DNA from: Gemmatimonadota bacterium
GTDB taxonomy: Bacteria; Gemmatimonadota; Gemmatimonadetes; Longimicrobiales; RSA9
Direction: 5' to 3'
Length of the DNA stretch: 40,948 nt
Assembly: GCA_017881445.1 (NCBI GenBank)
Contig: JADGQX010000010.1
Coordinates: 1-40,948 of the forward strand
The translations under genes were made by a program, and so were the position numbers. Shown here piece by piece: positions 27,961 to 36,464 of this stretch; position 1 is the stretch's first letter; each line of letters opens with the position of its first letter. The notes under the pieces are model-generated. The model saw only the letters and a program-made list of their open reading frames with translations. It was not told the DNA's origin and made no database searches.

Positions 27961-29295
27961 TTGGATACGCTGACGGCGGCGCGGGGGCAGATGGAGGTGT
28001 CGCTCGCGTTCCACATCATCTTCGCGGCGGTGGGGATCGGGCTGCCGCTGCTGATGGTGATCGCGGAGGGGCTCTGGCTGCGGACGGGGCGGGAGCATTA
28101 TCGGGCGCTGGCGCAGAAATGGGCGAAGGCGACGGCGCTGACGTTCGTGGTGGGCGCGGTGTCGGGGACGGCGCTGTCGTTCGAGCTGGGGCTGCTGTGG
28201 CCGCGCTTCATGGCGCTGGCGGGCGGCGTGGTGGGGCCGACGTTCGCGCTGGAGGGGTACGCGTTCTTCATCGAGGCGATCTTCATCGGGCTGTACCTGT
28301 ACGGCTGGGACCGGCTCTCGCCGAGGGCGCATTGGCTGACGGGCGTCCCGGTGGCGGTGAGCGGCGCGGCATCCGGGGTGCTGGTGCTGGCGGCGAACGC
28401 CTGGATGCAGACTCCCGGGGGCTTCCAGGTGGCCGGCGGACGGCTGGTGGCGGTGGACCCGTTGGCGCCGTTCAAGGCGACGGCGTGGCTGGACATGGCG
28501 CTGCACTCCACGCTCTCGAGCTACATCGCCACGTCCTTCGCGGTGGCGGGGGTATACGCGGCGGGGATGCTGCGGGGCCGGCGGGATGCCTACCACCGCT
28601 CGGCGCTGGGGATCGCGCTGGCGATCGGGACCGTGACCGCGCTGCTGCAGCCGCTGTCGGGCGACATCAGCGCGCGGCGGGTGGCCCGCACGCAACCGGC
28701 CAAGCTGGCGGCCGCGGAGGCGCTCTTCCGGACGCAGCGGCGGGCGCCGCTGCTGCTGGGCGGGATCCCCGATGCGGCGGCGGGACGCACGCGCTTCGGG
28801 CTGGAGCTGCCGGGCGGGCTGAGCCTGCTCGTGGGCCACGACCTGGACACGGAAGTGAAGGGTCTGGACTCGGTGCCGCCGGAGCAGCGGCCGAACGTGC
28901 TGGTGACGCACCTGGCGTTCGACACCATGATCGGCTCGGCCATGCTCCTGATCGCGGCGGGCGTGGCGTACTGGGTGGTGCGGCGGCGGCGGAAGGGCGA
29001 CGTCGCCCGGCCGTGGCTGCTGCGGGCGCTGCTGGCGTCGTCGCCGCTGGGATTCCTGGCGCTGGAGGCGGGCTGGCTCGTCACCGAGGTGGGGCGCCAG
29101 CCGTGGGTCATCTACAACGTGATGCCGACGGCGGACGCGGTGACGCCGGTGACGGATGTGCCGGTGACGTTCTTCGGCTTCAGCGTGGTGTACCTGGCGC
29201 TGGGCACGGCGCTGGTGCTGCTGCTGAGGCGGCTGGCGACAGGGGCACCGGCGCCCGGGGGCGGGGCGGAGGAGGAGGTGCGCAGTGTCGCTTGA
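27961..29295 (+). CDS. cydA: Cytochrome bd ubiquinol oxidase subunit I
   Basis: CydA holds hemes b558, b595 and d and oxidises quinol while reducing oxygen. The 444-residue length is that of the short Q-loop class. Conserved features are the N-terminal ARGQMEVSLAFHIIFA with heme ligand His18, a second candidate ligand in DMALHSTLSSY, and the GRQPW signature in the C-terminal half (TEVGRQPWVIYNVMPTADAV). I chose the TTG at 27961 because it restores the conserved N-terminus; an ATG at 27991 would remove it. It overlaps cydB by 11 bases. It is a high-affinity oxidase suited to low oxygen. Confidence 0.94.
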   Translation: MDTLTAARGQMEVSLAFHIIFAAVGIGLPLLMVIAEGLWLRTGREHYRALAQKWAKATALTFVVGAVSGTALSFELGLLWPRFMALAGGVVGPTFALEGYAFFIEAIFIGLYLYGWDRLSPRAHWLTGVPVAVSGAASGVLVLAANAWMQTPGGFQVAGGRLVAVDPLAPFKATAWLDMALHSTLSSYIATSFAVAGVYAAGMLRGRRDAYHRSALGIALAIGTVTALLQPLSGDISARRVARTQPAKLAAAEALFRTQRRAPLLLGGIPDAAAGRTRFGLELPGGLSLLVGHDLDTEVKGLDSVPPEQRPNVLVTHLAFDTMIGSAMLLIAAGVAYWVVRRRRKGDVARPWLLRALLASSPLGFLALEAGWLVTEVGRQPWVIYNVMPTADAVTPVTDVPVTFFGFSVVYLALGTALVLLLRRLATGAPAPGGGAEEEVRSVA

Positions 29296-30292
29296 GATCG
29301 TGCTGGGCGGTCTGGGAGTGGTGGGCGTGCTGGCCTACGGGCTGCTGGGAGGCGCGGACTTCGGGGGCGGCGTGTGGGACGCGCTGGCGACGGGGCCGCG
29401 CAAGGCGGCGCAGCGCCGGGCGATCGCGCGGGCCATGGGGCCGGTCTGGGAAGCCAACCACGTCTGGCTGATCTTCGTCATCGTCATCATGTTCGCGGCG
29501 TTCCCGTCCGCCTACGCGGCGCTGAGCGAGGCGCTGTTCGTCCCGTTCCACCTGGTGCTGCTGGGGATCATCCTGCGGGGAGCGGCGTTCGTATTCCGGA
29601 CCTACTCCCCGGGGGACTCCCGGGGGATGGATGGCGCCGGGGCGCTGCGCTGGGGAGCGGTGTTCGGCGTGGCCAGCGTGATCACGCCGGTGCTGCTGGG
29701 AATGTGTCTCGGCGCCGTGTCCACCGGTGGCGTGCACGTGAGCGCAGGCACGGTCAGCATCGACGGCGGGCCGCCCTGGCTGACGCCGGTCTCCATCGGG
29801 ATCGGGCTGCTGGCGCTGGCGCTCTGCGCCCAGCTGGCGGCCATCTATCTGGCCAACGAGACGACCGACGAGCTGCGCGAGGATTTCCGCAGCCGGGCAC
29901 TGCTGGCATCCACCGCGGTGGTGGTGCTGGCGGCGGTGATGCTGCCGCTGCTGCAGGCACGGGCGCCCAACCTCTGGCGGGGGCTGCTCGCCGCGCGCAC
30001 CCTGCCGGTGCTGGTGGCCGGGGCGGGCTGCGCCGCCGCGGCCGGCGTGGCGCTGTTGCGGCGCCGCTACCGGATCGCCCGGGCGGCGACGGTGGGGCAG
30101 GCCGGGTGCATACTCGCCGGCTGGGCGCTGGCCCAGTACCCGTACATCATCTACCCGGACGTGCGGGTCATGGACGCGGCGGCGCCCGCGGCCACCTTGC
30201 GCTTCATCCTCTACACGCTGCCGCTGGGGCTCGGTCTGCTATTGCCGTCGCTCTATCTGCTGTTCCGCGTATTCAAGGGGGAGCACATCTGA
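29285..30292 (+). CDS. cydB: Cytochrome bd ubiquinol oxidase subunit II
   Basis: CydB is the structural partner of CydA. This 335-residue membrane protein has about eight or nine spans. Family hallmarks are the N-terminal GGADFGGGVWDAL and GPVWEANHVWLIFVIV. The GTG start at 29285 lies inside the end of cydA and has GAGGAGG about 6 bases upstream, so translation is coupled. No small CydX gene follows; after the stop comes a 142-base gap before the convergent kinase gene. Confidence 0.94.
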   Translation: MSLEIVLGGLGVVGVLAYGLLGGADFGGGVWDALATGPRKAAQRRAIARAMGPVWEANHVWLIFVIVIMFAAFPSAYAALSEALFVPFHLVLLGIILRGAAFVFRTYSPGDSRGMDGAGALRWGAVFGVASVITPVLLGMCLGAVSTGGVHVSAGTVSIDGGPPWLTPVSIGIGLLALALCAQLAAIYLANETTDELREDFRSRALLASTAVVVLAAVMLPLLQARAPNLWRGLLAARTLPVLVAGAGCAAAAGVALLRRRYRIARAATVGQAGCILAGWALAQYPYIIYPDVRVMDAAAPAATLRFILYTLPLGLGLLLPSLYLLFRVFKGEHI

Positions 30293-30434: not shown

Positions 30435-32543
30435 CTAGGCGTCGGCGCTGTTGCGCCGATGCGGGCGGCGGGGCTCGGGCGTGTCGGCGCGGGGGAAGGT
30501 GAAGAAGAAGCGGCTGCCCTTCCCTTCCTCGCTCTCGACACCAATGTGACCACCGTGGGCCTCGACGATGCCCTTGGCGATGGCGAGGCCCAGACCGATG
30601 CCGGCGCGGCCGGTGCGGCGCGCCTGCCAGAAGCGGTCGAAGACGTGGGGCAGCTGCTCCGGGGGGATGCCGGGACCGGTATCCTCGACTTCGATGCGGA
30701 CGTCGTTGCCTGCGGCCGCGGCGCGCACCCAGACGCGGCCGCCGCCGGGGGTGAACTTGACGGCGTTGCCCACCACGTTGGAGACGACCTGCACGACGCG
30801 GCCGGCGTCGGCGAGGATGCGGGGCAGGGTCTCGGTGCCGAGGTCGATCTCGAGGTGGAGCGGCTTGGCGTCGGCGAGGGGGATGAGCCCGTCGCAGGCC
30901 TCGCGCACGAGGGGCTCGACCGCGCAGGGTCGGCGCTCGAGGGAGAGCTGGCGCGCCTGGACGCGGTGGACCTCGAGCAGGTCGTGGATGAGCCGCTCCA
31001 TGCGCTCGGCGGAGCGGCGGATGGCGTCGCCATAGTAGCGAGCGGAGTCGTCGCTGACGCTGGAGACCATCATCTTCTCGGCCATGATGATGGCCTGCAA
31101 CGGATTACCGAGCTCGTGCGAGACTGCGGCGAGGACGTCGTCGCGGGCGAGGATGGCCTGCTTTGCCTCACCGTAGAGGCGGGCGTTCTCGACGGCGATG
31201 GCGGCGCGGCGGGCGAGCTCCTCCACCAGGCCGAGGTCCTCGGCGTCGTAGGGGCGGCCGCCCGTGCGCCGGATGAAGGTGATGACGCCCGTGGTCCGGC
31301 CGTGGGCGATCATGGGGACGATGACGTGGGAGCGGATGTCGAGAGCCTGGAGCAGCTCGAAGTGGCGATCGCCCTGGCTGATGTCGCGCAGGTAGCTCTC
31401 GGGGACGTCGGAGACGAGCTGGGCGTGGCCGGTCTCGAGGGCGCGGAACACCAGGTGAGGCGAGGAACGGTCGAGCGGGTAGCGGCGCAGCTCCTCGACC
31501 AGCGCTTCCTTGGTCGGGTCGGTGTGGGCGACCTCGAGGCGGCGGACGGTGCCGTCGGGCTCGACGACGTCGACGATGCACATCTCGGCGACGCCGCGGA
31601 CCGCGAGCTGCGCGACCGCCTGCAGCGTGAGCTGGTAGTCGAGGGAGGATGAGAGGATGCTGCCGGCTTCCGCCAGGAACTGGCGGGAGACCTCGCCTCG
31701 TTTCCTGCGGGTGATGTCCTGGAAGAAGACGCTGAGCCCCTCGTCGGTCGGATAGAGCCGGGTGCCGATCCAGCGCTGGGCGGGGGCGAAGTCGACGTCG
31801 AACTCGCGGGCGACGCGCTCGCGCATGGCCAGGCGGCACTCCTCCTCGAAGAGTGTCGCGCGCAACGCGGGGACGACATCCCAGAGGGTGCGCCCGAGAG
31901 CGGCATCCCGCTGGATGGCGAGAGAGCGCTCCGCCTCGCGGTTGATGTAGGTCATGCGCCAATCGGCATCGATAGCGAAGAAGCCGTCGGCGATGCTCTC
32001 GAGGATGTGCTCGAGACGGGCGGCGGCCGCCTCGGCCGCGTGCCGGGCTCCCTGCTCCACCAGGAGCGCCCGGGCCTGGCTCTCGCTCGCCCGCGCCTCC
32101 GTCACATCCACGCCGATCCCGATGACGAAGCGGACCTCTCCCCGTGCATCCGTCAGGACGGTGTTGGACCAGGAGACGAGGCGGCGTGCCCCGGAGCGGG
32201 CGACCCAGATGTTCTCGTGGAAGCTGGGGAACTCACCGGCGCAGAGTCGATCGAAGACGGCGCGAACGCCGCCGACATCTTCCTCCAGCAGCAGCACGTC
32301 CCAGAAGGGCAGCCCGAGGACCTCGCCGGCCGCGTAGCCCGTGATCTCCTCGCAGGCGCGGTTGAAGAGGACGATGCGGCCGGCGCGGTCCAGGACCACG
32401 ATGAGCGAGCCCGCCGTCCCCAGAACGGCGGCCAGGAAATCGGGATCCTGCGCGAGCGCCCGCGCGGACGCTCCGCCGGCCGCTGCCGACGTGGCGCTGT
32501 CCTCCCTGGCCACGGGCCTCCGGGACGATGCGGGTGGGGACAT
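30435..32543 (-). CDS. PAS-PAS-GAF sensor histidine kinase
   Basis: A 702-residue soluble sensor kinase. PAS domains lie at about 35-150 and 178-280, a GAF domain at about 295-455, the dimerisation/phosphoacceptor domain at 465-535 with His476 (AVSHELGNPLQAI), and the ATPase domain at about 570-685. The N box (NVVGNAVKFTP), G1 (DTGPGIPP), F box (FDRFWQ) and G2 (GIGLGLAIAKG) are intact. No membrane span or receiver domain is seen, and no response regulator is adjacent, so it is an orphan kinase. PAS-2 resembles the middle PAS of the GGDEF-EAL protein at 16582. Signal unknown. Confidence 0.93.
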   Translation of the reverse strand: MSPPASSRRPVAREDSATSAAAGGASARALAQDPDFLAAVLGTAGSLIVVLDRAGRIVLFNRACEEITGYAAGEVLGLPFWDVLLLEEDVGGVRAVFDRLCAGEFPSFHENIWVARSGARRLVSWSNTVLTDARGEVRFVIGIGVDVTEARASESQARALLVEQGARHAAEAAAARLEHILESIADGFFAIDADWRMTYINREAERSLAIQRDAALGRTLWDVVPALRATLFEEECRLAMRERVAREFDVDFAPAQRWIGTRLYPTDEGLSVFFQDITRRKRGEVSRQFLAEAGSILSSSLDYQLTLQAVAQLAVRGVAEMCIVDVVEPDGTVRRLEVAHTDPTKEALVEELRRYPLDRSSPHLVFRALETGHAQLVSDVPESYLRDISQGDRHFELLQALDIRSHVIVPMIAHGRTTGVITFIRRTGGRPYDAEDLGLVEELARRAAIAVENARLYGEAKQAILARDDVLAAVSHELGNPLQAIIMAEKMMVSSVSDDSARYYGDAIRRSAERMERLIHDLLEVHRVQARQLSLERRPCAVEPLVREACDGLIPLADAKPLHLEIDLGTETLPRILADAGRVVQVVSNVVGNAVKFTPGGGRVWVRAAAAGNDVRIEVEDTGPGIPPEQLPHVFDRFWQARRTGRAGIGLGLAIAKGIVEAHGGHIGVESEEGKGSRFFFTFPRADTPEPRRPHRRNSADA

Positions 32544-32629: not shown

Positions 32630-33412
32630 TCAGCTACCGGCCAGGATCTGCCGGAGGAACTCCAGCGCGCGCGGGTCATGGCTCTGGCCGAGCCAGAAGA
32701 TGGCCTGGCGGCGCATCTCCGGATCCCTGTTGCCGCGGGCGATGGCCATGAGGGCGGGCACGCCTTCCTCCGCCGGGCGCTGGGAGAGCGCGAAGATGGC
32801 GGACCGCCGCACCTGGCGGTCCCCGTCGTTCTCCACGATGTCGGTGAGCCCCTTCGTGGCGGCGGTGGCCGCCTGCTGCGCCAGCCAGAAGGTGGCGTCG
32901 CGGCGCACCTCGGTGGGGCGGCTCTCGTCGCGGGCGAGGGCGAGGAGCTTCGGCCACACCTCGACGCCATCGGCGAGGGACGCGGGGAAGACCGCGTGCC
33001 TGGCCACCTTGGCTTCGCCGTGGGCGGCCACGTCCAGGAGCCAGGCGCTGGCCTCGGCGGGGGCGATGGTGCCCAGGTCGGTGGCCGGCCCGGCGCCTTC
33101 GCGCCAGCGGCCGCCGACGTAGAAGCGGAGCGCGGTGACCCGGTGCGAGGCGAGGTCGAGCGACACGCGGGCGGGGCCGCTCTCGCAGGCGGATTCCCAC
33201 TCCGATGTGGGGCGGCGGATGTTGACGCTCTGGCCATCGCCGCAGACCCCGGCCCGGACAGCGAAACTGAAGCGCACGGTGCCATCGGGCGCCGCCGCGA
33301 TCCGCTGGGCCAGCGACTGGGCGGCCAGCGGCGCCAGGGGAGCCGCCAGGGGCGGCGCGCCGGCCGCGAGGAGCGTGGCGGCGGCGAACGAGGTGAAGCG
33401 CAGCGTCGTCAT
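32630..33412 (-). CDS. Exported HEAT-repeat protein, short paralog
   Basis: A 260-residue protein with a signal peptide (about 1-32, ending PLAAQS). Residues about 40-110 form a beta-rich domain with two cysteines (Cys57, Cys76) that could form a disulfide. The C-terminal half has HEAT repeats with cores TFWLAQ (174-179), IFALSQ (206-211) and IFWLGQ (238-243), spaced exactly 32 residues. The last repeat, AIFWLGQSHDPRA, nearly equals the last repeat of the upstream protein (SRDPRA). The ATG overlaps the upstream stop by four bases. HEAT repeats bind proteins; the partner is unknown. It is the last gene of the sigma operon. Confidence 0.85.
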   Translation of the reverse strand: MTTLRFTSFAAATLLAAGAPPLAAPLAPLAAQSLAQRIAAAPDGTVRFSFAVRAGVCGDGQSVNIRRPTSEWESACESGPARVSLDLASHRVTALRFYVGGRWREGAGPATDLGTIAPAEASAWLLDVAAHGEAKVARHAVFPASLADGVEVWPKLLALARDESRPTEVRRDATFWLAQQAATAATKGLTDIVENDGDRQVRRSAIFALSQRPAEEGVPALMAIARGNRDPEMRRQAIFWLGQSHDPRALEFLRQILAGS

Positions 33413-34968
33413 TGGTTGATGATCTCCTGGAGGACCTTGGCCGCGCGCGGATCGCGGGACTGTCCGAGCCAGAAGATGGCCTTCGAGCGGAGCGAAGGGT
33501 CCTTCTCGGTCCTGGCCACTTCCAGCAGCTTGTCCACGGCATCCTTGCGCTGGCTCATGGCGAAGAGGATCTGCTCGCGCATGGACTTGTCCGCGCTGGC
33601 GTCGTAGAGCTTGGAAAGCTCGGCCACGCTGAGGCCACCCTCCTGGCTGGCCCAGAAGAGCGCCTGCTTGCGCACGTTCAGCGGCTGCGAGGCATCGGTG
33701 GCGACGTCCACCAGGAAGCGGCTGTCCCCGGAGCCGTGCATCTGCGAGAGCGAGAAGAGGATGCGCTCCTTGGTCCGAGGGTTGTCCGCCCGCTTGAAGA
33801 GCTGGCGCAGGAACTCGGCATTGTCCGCCGTGGCATCCTGGCCGATCCAGAAGATGGCCTTCTCGCGCAGGTCCGCCGGCGCAGCGGCATTGTCGGCGAA
33901 GCGCCGCAGCGCCGCCGCCGCCTCGGGCGAGCGGTGCTGCGAGAGGGCGAAGAGGGCCTTCTCCTGCAAGGACCGGTCGGTGGCGGAAGCGAGCACCTCC
34001 TGGATCGCCTTGAGCGCCTTGGGCCCCGGCACCTGGGAGAGCCAGAACACCGCCTGCTCCCGCACGCCCGGATCGGGGTCGTTGCGGACCAGGTCCAGCA
34101 GGATGTCCTCGGTCTCGTCCGTGCGCTTCTGCGAGATGAGGAACACGGCCTGGCGGCGCAACGGCGCGGAGCACGCGTCCCGGCGCTTGAGCACATCGCG
34201 CAGCACCGGCAGTGCCTGGTCCGCGTCCATCTGCAGCAGCGCGTTCAGCGCCGCGACGCGCATGGCTGCCTTCTCCTCCTGACCAGCGCATTCCGGCGGC
34301 AGCGCCTGGCGCCTCGAGCCGCCCGGGCCCATGGCACCGACGACCTCCATCGCGGGACGAGCCGCCTCGAGTGCGGCCTTGGCGGCCTCCATACCGGCCT
34401 TGGCAGCCTCCATCTCGGCGCCGGTGCGCTCCGCTTGGACGGCCACCTGGTCCGCGACGGCGCCGGCGCGCTCGGCCTCGAAGGCGGCGGCGCGCGCCTC
34501 GGCGGTGACCGCTTCCGCGGCGTCGGCGTCGCCGGTCCGGGCCAGGGCGCCGTTGATGCGCGCGGCCAGGGCCTCGGCATCGCCGCGGGTGTTGGCGTTG
34601 GGGAAGCGCTTCTTCTGCTCCTGCAGGGCGACCTGGGCGCGGCGCAGCTCCTCGGAGCCGCCCTGGCGATAAAGCGCGAAGGCATGCCAGTAGAGCGCAT
34701 CGGGCGCGTAGCTGGAGTTCGGGTACCGATCGACGAGGCTGCGGAAGAGGGCGGCAGCCTGCCTGTAGTCGCCCTGGTTCAGGTGCTCGCGGGCCAGCTT
34801 GTAGAGCGAGTCCGCGGGGTCGCCCTGGTGCCTGGGCGCGGGCGGCACGGTGGCGAACGGCCGCTGCACCAGGCCCGGCCCGGCGGCGGGCGCTCGGGAG
34901 GGCGCGGGGCCAGGCACGGCGACCAGGCCGAGCGAGGTCACGAGCGCGAACAGTGTGACGCGTAGCAT
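33409..34968 (-). CDS. Exported TPR/coiled-coil/HEAT-repeat protein, long paralog
   Basis: A 519-residue exported protein: signal peptide (1 to about 28), TPR-like segment (about 50-140, with HLNQGDYRQAAALFRSLVDRYP, like the periplasmic YbgF/BamD type), an Ala/Glu-rich coiled coil (about 147-210), and eight to nine HEAT repeats (237-519). Repeat cores end in Gln at 280, 312, 344, 377, 409, 442, 473 and 503, every 30-33 residues. From 280 on, cores alternate strictly between a Trp form (FWLSQ, FWIGQ, FWASQ, FWLGQ) and a Trp-less form. GAGGAGG precedes the ATG at 34968. It starts 10 bases after the anti-sigma gene and overlaps the short paralog. Confidence 0.87.
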   Translation of the reverse strand: MLRVTLFALVTSLGLVAVPGPAPSRAPAAGPGLVQRPFATVPPAPRHQGDPADSLYKLAREHLNQGDYRQAAALFRSLVDRYPNSSYAPDALYWHAFALYRQGGSEELRRAQVALQEQKKRFPNANTRGDAEALAARINGALARTGDADAAEAVTAEARAAAFEAERAGAVADQVAVQAERTGAEMEAAKAGMEAAKAALEAARPAMEVVGAMGPGGSRRQALPPECAGQEEKAAMRVAALNALLQMDADQALPVLRDVLKRRDACSAPLRRQAVFLISQKRTDETEDILLDLVRNDPDPGVREQAVFWLSQVPGPKALKAIQEVLASATDRSLQEKALFALSQHRSPEAAAALRRFADNAAAPADLREKAIFWIGQDATADNAEFLRQLFKRADNPRTKERILFSLSQMHGSGDSRFLVDVATDASQPLNVRKQALFWASQEGGLSVAELSKLYDASADKSMREQILFAMSQRKDAVDKLLEVARTEKDPSLRSKAIFWLGQSRDPRAAKVLQEIINQ

Positions 34969-34978
34969 GGAGCCCTCC

Positions 34979-35851
34979 TCAGGTTTGGGCCGAGGCGCCG
35001 GCCGGCACGGCAGTACGCAGCCTCGGGAGTATGTCGCGCTCCTGGAGCGCACGGTCGACGAGCTCCGCGTCGCCCGGACGTGCATCGGGCGCGGCGCGCA
35101 GCTGAACGATCTGGACGAGAACCAGCTCGAGGTCTTCCAGCAGGGGCCGCAGCTTGGGGTCGCGGCCGGCCGGAGAGTCGATCAGCAGGCGGGTGCTCGA
35201 GAGCACGTCCCCGGCCCACTGCGCGAGCTGTGGATCCACGACACCCCGCTGGCGGGCGTCGGCACGAAAGGAGGTCAGCAGCAGCTCCGCCTGGCCCAGG
35301 GTCTGGGCGGCGGCCAGCCGGTACATCGAGCTGCGAGGCTGGGGCTGAGGCTGGGACGATCCCGGCCGGACGGTGTTCAGGGCGAACGTACGGTTCACGG
35401 GTGCGGCAGCGTCCGGAGTCCGCTGCTCCGACGGCGACGCCGCGGCGAGCGACCCGGGCGTCCGAGACTCGCCGGGCGCCTGCAACTTCGCGGGCCCGCC
35501 GGCGGGGGCCTTCGTCTCCGCCTGCCGGGTCGCCACGGTGGCGGCCGGCCGCTGGTACACCAGGGAGAGGCGACCGAGACCGAAGCTGAGCAGAAGCAGG
35601 GCCGCCACCGGCAGCGCCCGCCAGGCCCAGCGCTGGGCCCGGCGCCGGAAGGGGATCACGTCCGCCGGCAGATCGCCGGGGACTCCCGGATCGCCGGCCT
35701 CCGTGAGGGCGACGTCGCCCGAGGAGAGGCGACCTGCCTTGCGGGCCGCGCGGATGCGCCGCCACATCTCGTCGCGCGACGCCTCGGGTGGAGGATTGTA
35801 CCCGTCCCGCGCGAGGTCGCGAATCAGCTCGTCCATGCGATCTTCCTTCAT
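34979..35851 (-). CDS. Membrane-spanning anti-sigma factor (predicted)
   Basis: A 290-residue protein with a cytoplasmic N-terminal part (1-75), one transmembrane span (about 76-96) and an external domain of about 190 residues with a Pro/Ala-rich linker followed by helices (about 185-285). The name rests on position: its ATG overlaps the sigma-factor stop by four bases, and topology fits an anti-sigma factor. There is no Cys or His, so the common zinc-binding (HxxxCxxC) fold is absent. The external part may sense the envelope or contact the HEAT proteins encoded next. No family recognised from sequence alone. Confidence 0.75.
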   Translation of the reverse strand: MKEDRMDELIRDLARDGYNPPPEASRDEMWRRIRAARKAGRLSSGDVALTEAGDPGVPGDLPADVIPFRRRAQRWAWRALPVAALLLLSFGLGRLSLVYQRPAATVATRQAETKAPAGGPAKLQAPGESRTPGSLAAASPSEQRTPDAAAPVNRTFALNTVRPGSSQPQPQPRSSMYRLAAAQTLGQAELLLTSFRADARQRGVVDPQLAQWAGDVLSSTRLLIDSPAGRDPKLRPLLEDLELVLVQIVQLRAAPDARPGDAELVDRALQERDILPRLRTAVPAGASAQT

Positions 35852-36390
35852 ACGGCCCACTCCTCGGCGAAGTCCGCCAGCTCCTCCCGCAGGGCAGCCC
35901 GCGCCCGGAAGAGGCGAGCCTTGGAAGTCCCACTGGGTATTCCCAGCACCACGCCGATCTCCTCGTGCGTGAAGCCCTCGAGGTCGTGCATCAGGAACAC
36001 GATCCGGCCGTGCTCCGGCAGCCCATCGATCGCCCGCCGCAGCCGCACCTTGAGGTCCGGCTCGGCCTCCCTGCTCTCCACGCCCAGCTCCCTGGCATCG
36101 TCGAGATCCGTCTCGCGCTCGCGGAAGCGCTTGACCTTGCGCATCCCGTTGAGCACGACCGAAACCGCGATGGAGTGAAGCCACGTGGCGAAAGCGGAGT
36201 CGCCCCGGAAATCGGCCAGGCGGCTGAACGCGCGGATGAACGTGTCCTGGGTGAAATCCTGGGCCAGCTCCTCCCTGCCGCTCATGCGGTAGGCGAGGCG
36301 GTAGACGCGGTCGACGTGCGCGTCATAGAGCGCGCGCTCGGCGACTTCATCTCCCAGCTTGGCCCGGGCGATCAACTCGCGGTCGTCCAC
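35848..36390 (-). CDS. ECF RNA polymerase sigma factor (RpoE-like)
   Basis: A 180-residue group IV sigma factor. Region 2 (about 20-90) includes EELAQDFTQDTFIRAFSRLADFRGDSAFATWLHSIA, and region 4 (about 120-172) includes LPEHGRIVFLMHDLEGFTHEEIGVVLGIPSGTSKARLFRAR, the -10 and -35 recognition parts. A GTG at 36390 with GGAG 4 bases upstream is the start. It heads a four-gene operon with its anti-sigma factor and two HEAT proteins. A matching ECF-type promoter lies about 47 bases upstream, suggesting that the sigma factor activates its own operon. Confidence 0.95.
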   Translation of the reverse strand: MDDRELIARAKLGDEVAERALYDAHVDRVYRLAYRMSGREELAQDFTQDTFIRAFSRLADFRGDSAFATWLHSIAVSVVLNGMRKVKRFRERETDLDDARELGVESREAEPDLKVRLRRAIDGLPEHGRIVFLMHDLEGFTHEEIGVVLGIPSGTSKARLFRARAALREELADFAEEWAV

Positions 36391-36436: not shown

Positions 36437-36464
36437 TAGACACGGCCAGGGCGGAAACGGTTGC
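36437..36464 (-). promoter_or_regulatory. ECF-type promoter of the sigma/anti-sigma/HEAT operon
   Basis: On the minus strand GCAACC (36464-36459) and GTCTA (36441-36437) are 17 bases apart. They resemble the AAC-containing -35 and GTCTA -10 elements of many ECF sigma factors. Transcription would start near 36430, about 40 bases before the sigma GTG. Confidence 0.5.

Follow-up and report, generated by a model that had tools for sequence, protein, structure and literature searches.

HEAT-repeat proteins with alternating tryptophans and a Phe/Gln ladder in a conserved ECF sigma factor operon of Gemmatimonadota

In a 40,948-nucleotide stretch of Gemmatimonadota DNA (the window, contig JADGQX010000010.1), we found two adjacent genes whose products, here called the long and the short protein, carry HEAT repeats in which Trp and non-Trp forms alternate, with Phe and Gln recurring at two fixed positions. 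Alternation together with this Phe/Gln ladder is a checkable rule by which a class of repeat proteins can be defined, and the rule is tied to an envelope-type sigma operon across one phylum and kept in a second. From the pattern, we suggest that the proteins form a groove of a kind not described before, which would hold an extended ligand, probably a peptide. Our literature search found no paper describing an ECF operon with two HEAT proteins, or this alternation combined with the ladder.

The genes lie on the minus strand, tightly packed in the order ECF sigma, putative anti-sigma, long HEAT, and short HEAT, with the following features.

36439 to 36464, minus strand: predicted ECF-type promoter, GCAACCGTTT-N12-TGTC, 72 nt 5' of the sigma gene (from spacing and genome pattern counts)
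35848 to 36390, minus strand: gene for a 180-aa ECF sigma factor, starting with GTG (Pfam Sigma70_r2 and r4_2 and NCBIfam sigma70-ECF, scoring above cut-off)
34979 to 35851, minus strand: putative membrane anti-sigma factor, beginning (ATG) 4 nt before the sigma gene ends (predicted transmembrane segment at about 35558 to 35614, hydrophobic 19-mer LPVAALLLLSFGLGRLSLV)
33409 to 34968, minus strand: long protein, 519 aa, with signal peptide, TPR domain, and a HEAT array of eight repeats plus a degenerate first one (Pfam, AF2 model, conservation in the phylum)
34714 to 34812, minus strand: TPR_6 (YbgF/BamD-like) of the long protein, residues 53 to 85 (Pfam E 3.6e-11)
33415 to 34296, minus strand: HEAT array of the long protein, residues about 225 to 518 (HEAT_2 E 7e-25; helices in the model)
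34042 to 34044, minus strand: Trp309 codon, long protein repeat 2 (invariant column W269 of the long-ortholog alignment)
33847 to 33849, minus strand: Trp374 codon, long protein repeat 4 (invariant column W334, same alignment)
33652 to 33654, minus strand: Trp439 codon, long protein repeat 6 (invariant column W399, same alignment)
33469 to 33471, minus strand: Trp500 codon, long protein repeat 8, the last (invariant column W460, same alignment)
32630 to 33412, minus strand: short protein, 260 aa, with signal peptide, beta-rich N-terminal domain, and a HEAT array ending W-A-W (Pfam, AF2, ortholog alignment)
32885 to 32887, minus strand: Trp176 codon, short protein (invariant column W176 of the short-ortholog alignment)
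32693 to 32695, minus strand: Trp240 codon, short protein, last repeat (invariant column W240, same alignment)

The long gene begins with an ATG at 34968 preceded by GAGGAGG, and the short gene overlaps the stop of the long gene by 4 nt; an earlier, sequence-only reading had placed the pair at 32630 to 34968, which is correct. That reading also described repeat cores that alternate between a Trp and a Trp-less form, and the cores read exactly so in both proteins: AVFLISQ (starting at residue 274), AVFWLSQ (306), ALFALSQ (338), AIFWIGQ (371), ILFSLSQ (403), ALFWASQ (436), ILFAMSQ (467), and AIFWLGQ (497) in the long protein, and ATFWLAQ (173), AIFALSQ (205), and AIFWLGQ (237) in the short one. 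The alternating helix position thus runs L-W-A-W-S-W-A-W and W-A-W, respectively. The 32-residue spacing given for the repeats is exact in the short protein and varies from 30 to 33 residues in the long one. Strictness, likewise claimed, holds for the eight cores of the long protein; a ninth, degenerate repeat with the core ALNALLQ precedes them, so that alternation is absent from the two N-terminal repeats (A, L). In a single sequence, such a pattern has a chance of about 1% (2/70 arrangements times 1/3) and is weak evidence; it is the homologs that make the pattern decisive.

Among 29 orthologs of the long protein, at 42 to 60% identity (about 50%), the four Trp columns are invariant, as are both Trp columns among 24 orthologs of the short protein. 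Arrays were then collected with a repeat HMM, only distinct ones being counted, and the expected number of neighboring repeats of the same type was obtained by shuffling within arrays. Same-type neighbors made up 7 of 596 in the long-type arrays of Gemmatimonadota (255.5 expected), 0 of 167 in the short-type arrays (55.6 expected), and 7 of 75 in arrays of a second phylum (30.3 expected, with a minimum of 19 in 2000 shuffles), counts that are not readable as probabilities because orthologs are not independent. Stronger than these counts is that the rule survives changes of array length, holding in two phyla across arrays of 3, 7, 8, and 9 repeats, and that its phase is set from the C terminus: in Gemmatimonadota, the last repeat carries Trp in 169/170 arrays and the penultimate one lacks it in 161/162. 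Core position 10 follows the repeat type, being mostly Gly in Trp repeats and mostly Ser in the others. The arrays that break the alternation read WWAW, ...SNW, WASAW, and LWSWSLVW. Altogether, the alternation is conserved in Gemmatimonadota and largely kept in the second phylum, with other array lengths and some exceptions; Trp is not randomly placed in the homologs, where it recurs with a period of two repeats.

The two phyla were represented by 150 genomes from that of the window and 149 from the second, the latter entered via the genome (G150) of contig L086, titled Thermoanaerobaculia, a class of Acidobacteriota. Because the two genome sets have zero overlap and the matches of the second are far weaker, we take the second phylum to be, probably, Acidobacteriota. 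Besides contig L086 and a few records titled 'bacterium', the genome scan reached almost only Gemmatimonadota, and a search of a plasmid collection found no relatives. Contig L086 (JAGOCP010000376.1) is labelled Thermoanaerobaculia, bears a Gemmatimonadota-like copy, and is possibly misbinned.

The sequence-only reading had attributed the alternation to the duplication of dimers, in which case a pair of repeats would be the evolutionary unit, the array would have grown by copying W/non-W dimers, and the alternation would be inherited history. The strict period of two speaks for this origin, as does the type-dependent difference at core position 10. The comparison of repeats by lag, however, gave no excess of similarity at lag 2 outside the core: mean BLOSUM similarity without the alternating column was 1.25 for neighbors and 1.27 for repeats two apart, and 0.71 and 0.58, respectively, when the whole 7-mer core was removed. 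Moreover, repeat 2 of the short protein, a non-Trp repeat, is closest to repeat 2 of the long protein, a Trp repeat (52% identity), and Trp and non-Trp repeats here tend not to separate into two clades. The signal of very old duplications could have been lost; with the lag analysis and the long-short comparison both against it, dimer duplication is left unsupported, and we regard it as improbable.

Both proteins belong to the HEAT_2 family (PF13646), scoring 87.6 bits (long) and 54.0 bits (short) against a gathering cut-off of 27.7. In AF2 models with mean pLDDT of 89.2 (long, modeled with the 29 orthologs) and 88.5 (short), helices are paired at the repeat spacing, as in a HEAT solenoid; the model of the long protein comprises a YbgF/BamD-like TPR domain, a low-confidence linker, and the HEAT array, and the N-terminal beta-rich domain of the short protein has no Pfam match. 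When the models were compared with the PDB by Foldseek, alphaRep proteins ranked first for both, for the short protein over about 110 to 150 columns, which is as long as its HEAT part, with importin-alpha and beta-catenin further down for the long one. The TPR domain is shared with YbgF/CpoB and BamD (TIGR02795, TIGR03302, and YfiO matches), at 58.5 bits for TIGR02795, over the TPR part only and below the cut-off of 90.1, and at 40.3 bits for TIGR03302, below the cut-off of 81.4; the partners differ from those of YbgF/CpoB and BamD, being here a conserved sigma factor, an anti-sigma factor, and a second HEAT gene. Each protein starts with a hydrophobic, signal-like segment. The long protein has two or four Cys in every ortholog; one pair, where the HEAT array begins, moves together by a few residues from ortholog to ortholog and is never lost, a pattern compatible with a disulfide bond outside the cytoplasm. 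From the predicted signal peptides and the Cys pattern of the long protein, both proteins are probably exported.

The repeats hold a further constancy that the sequence-only reading missed. In the long protein, Gln occupies helix position 11 of every repeat, and Phe occupies position 7 of all but the degenerate first. Repeat-position entropy was 0.00 bits for Gln 11, 0.05 for Phe 7, and 0.37 for the Trp/non-Trp position 8, compared to 1.1 to 2.1 for most other surface positions; positions 7, 11, and then 8 are the most conserved of the repeat. AlphaRep is the best match with a solved structure in both sequence and fold, and it shares the repeat register: its profile V-R-x-x-A-A-x-x-L-G-x-I aligns with V-R-E-Q-A-V-F-W-L-S-Q-V, placing Arg at alphaRep position 17, Phe at 22, the alternating residue at 23, and Gln at 26. 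In alphaRep, positions 18, 19, 22, 23, 26, and 30 are variable, and the ligand is bound by the concave face (PMC3754942). Positions 22, 23, and 26, variable there by design, are thus conserved in the proteins of the window. Since the side-chain direction is taken from the alphaRep alignment, we infer that Phe, Trp, and Gln are solvent-exposed on the concave side, a placement that would agree with the sequence-only suggestion of Trp lining one face of the solenoid.

Compared to HEAT_2 and PBS-lyase HEAT-like repeats (PF13646, PF03130), the two proteins share the sequence family and a two-helix repeat of 31 to 32 residues but differ in having Trp, in alternate repeats, at the usual Ala/Ser position, and in fixing Phe and Gln at the presumed concave positions of nearly every repeat. 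As a control, generic HEAT repeats of the same genome, identified by a regular expression, had Ala or Ser at the alternating position in 15/15 cases; a control with a loose HMM yielded no matches among other HEAT proteins. Elsewhere in this genome, a HEAT protein on contig C316 (574 to 2814 of locus L004, minus strand), which matches Pfam Arm and HEAT_2, has Trp at position 7 in most of its listed repeats (AAWALGQ), a W-x-x-x-Q version of the ladder that does not alternate. On contig C189, HEAT_2 matched four times in a stretch of about 11 kb (43424 to 54620), where clustered HEAT genes lack the motif.

Small residues are favored at alphaRep position 23, a preference ascribed to steric hindrance between modules (PMC3754942). 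By the same reasoning, a Trp at this position would occupy the gap to the following inner helix, its neighbor would have to be small, and Trp could be carried by only every second repeat, giving a groove packed in units of two repeats. If true, this steric limit of one Trp per two repeats would offer a rule for designing HEAT arrays. The same steric preference also favors a purely structural account, in which the Trp alternation merely tunes the fold, through superhelix curvature or stability, and has no role in ligand binding; that the non-Trp residues at the alternating position vary (A, S, V, T, L) fits this account as well. It leaves unexplained why conservation is higher at the exposed positions 7 and 11 than in the core, and we consider it unlikely, though one of the two main rivals to the reading favored below, the other being a folded protein partner.

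An aromatic residue at i and an amide at i+4 of the inner helix of each repeat, here Phe and Gln with the inner side assigned by the alphaRep alignment, is a feature in common with importin-alpha and other armadillo proteins, which also appear among the Foldseek matches. Neither protein matched Armadillo (PF00514) at E 0.001, and whereas the armadillo repeat has three helices, about 42 residues, and a W/N pair, the repeats here have two helices, 32 residues, and an F/Q pair in proteins that are bacterial and probably exported; the likeness would therefore be a resemblance in working, not membership. In importin-alpha, the W-x-x-x-N groove packs on side chains of the peptide and hydrogen-bonds its main chain (PMC3885797), and extended peptides are the ligands of designed repeat proteins in which Gln and Phe or Tyr recur (PMC10115654). 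By analogy, Gln of the F-x-x-x-Q ladder may hydrogen-bond the backbone of a ligand, with Phe packing on its side chains. Should an extended polypeptide prove to be what the groove binds, bacteria would have a natural equivalent of the armadillo groove, one that could readily serve as a scaffold for peptide binders.

Sugar-binding grooves, too, typically carry aromatic and amide side chains. A groove of Trp, Phe, and Gln could accordingly hold a polysaccharide or a peptidoglycan strand, in keeping with the predicted export and with a TPR part that resembles YbgF/CpoB. Neither protein, however, had a match to a carbohydrate-binding domain in the Pfam scan, and the solved alpha-solenoids with known ligands among the Foldseek matches mostly bind proteins or peptides, leaving a glycan ligand quite unlikely in our estimate.

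Upstream of the HEAT genes, in an operon that the sequence-only reading likewise missed, the sigma gene scored 91.3 bits against NCBIfam TIGR02937 (cut-off 42.9) and thus encodes an ECF sigma factor. The putative anti-sigma factor has a predicted transmembrane segment, which contains the 19-mer, and no domain was detected in it by the Pfam scan; relatives stand at the same place in Gemmatimonadota loci, and a transmembrane segment is likewise present in the second phylum's counterparts, with zf-HC2 in 2/3 scanned. Where enough sequence was available, the sigma gene lay upstream in 57/58 Gemmatimonadota loci, and another HEAT gene followed downstream in 70/72; the corresponding numbers in the second phylum were 16/18 and at least 13/19, several loci that lacked a short-type call being pairs whose second gene scored as long. 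The four-gene order of sigma, anti-sigma, long, and short is therefore conserved. AACC-N17-GTC occurred at that spacing in 51/59 regions upstream of the sigma gene, compared to 0 to 8 at other spacings, and the extended promoter pattern had exactly one match in the 4.75-Mb genome, at this operon, with none for a control pattern. Allowing up to two mismatches across the whole genome gave 44 matches versus 29 for the control pattern, hence no credible further targets of the sigma factor; both promoter and regulon are predictions from sequence. Gene order, a putative membrane anti-sigma, and a promoter-like element are shared with ECF sigma/zf-HC2 anti-sigma operons, whereas the only other conserved members seen here are the two HEAT proteins. 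A literature search for papers linking HEAT repeats to sigma factors in the two phyla returned nothing relevant.

The near-constant adjacency of the long and short genes, with the 4-nt overlap seen here, raises the possibility that the groove binds a folded protein surface, the two proteins pairing by their concave faces or binding the periplasmic part of the anti-sigma factor; alphaRep A3 and bA3-2 bind each other through their concave faces (PMC3754942). An identical F/Q ladder over eight repeats is better suited to a repetitive, extended ligand, and we find a folded partner a rather unlikely, if serious, candidate. Our preferred reading, tentative and a shade short of an even chance as a whole chain, is that a self-regulated ECF operon produces two exported HEAT solenoids that bind an extended ligand, most likely an envelope polypeptide, in their concave groove. 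On this model, inactivation of the membrane anti-sigma factor would allow the sigma factor to transcribe its own operon, and the HEAT proteins would then bind a polypeptide linked to the stress and may in turn signal to the anti-sigma factor; the kind of ligand, the hydrogen bonds to its backbone, the autoregulation, and the feedback are all inferred. The most specific version, an exported bacterial analogue of the importin-alpha groove that uses its F-x-x-x-Q ladder and two-repeat Trp period to capture extended envelope polypeptides in the service of a dedicated ECF sigma factor with its own operon as sole strong target, is doubtful at present.

Downstream of the four genes, 86 nt past the short gene, lies a histidine kinase gene with PAS-PAS-GAF architecture (30435 to 32543, minus strand); it had a weak match in only two Gemmatimonadota-type loci (L086 and L103) and is therefore probably outside the conserved operon. 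Two further genes, convergent to the operon (27961 to 30292, plus strand), are putative cytochrome bd subunits judging by their sequence, and the same two putative genes also lie downstream in the closest relative, locus L096 (8231 to 10667).
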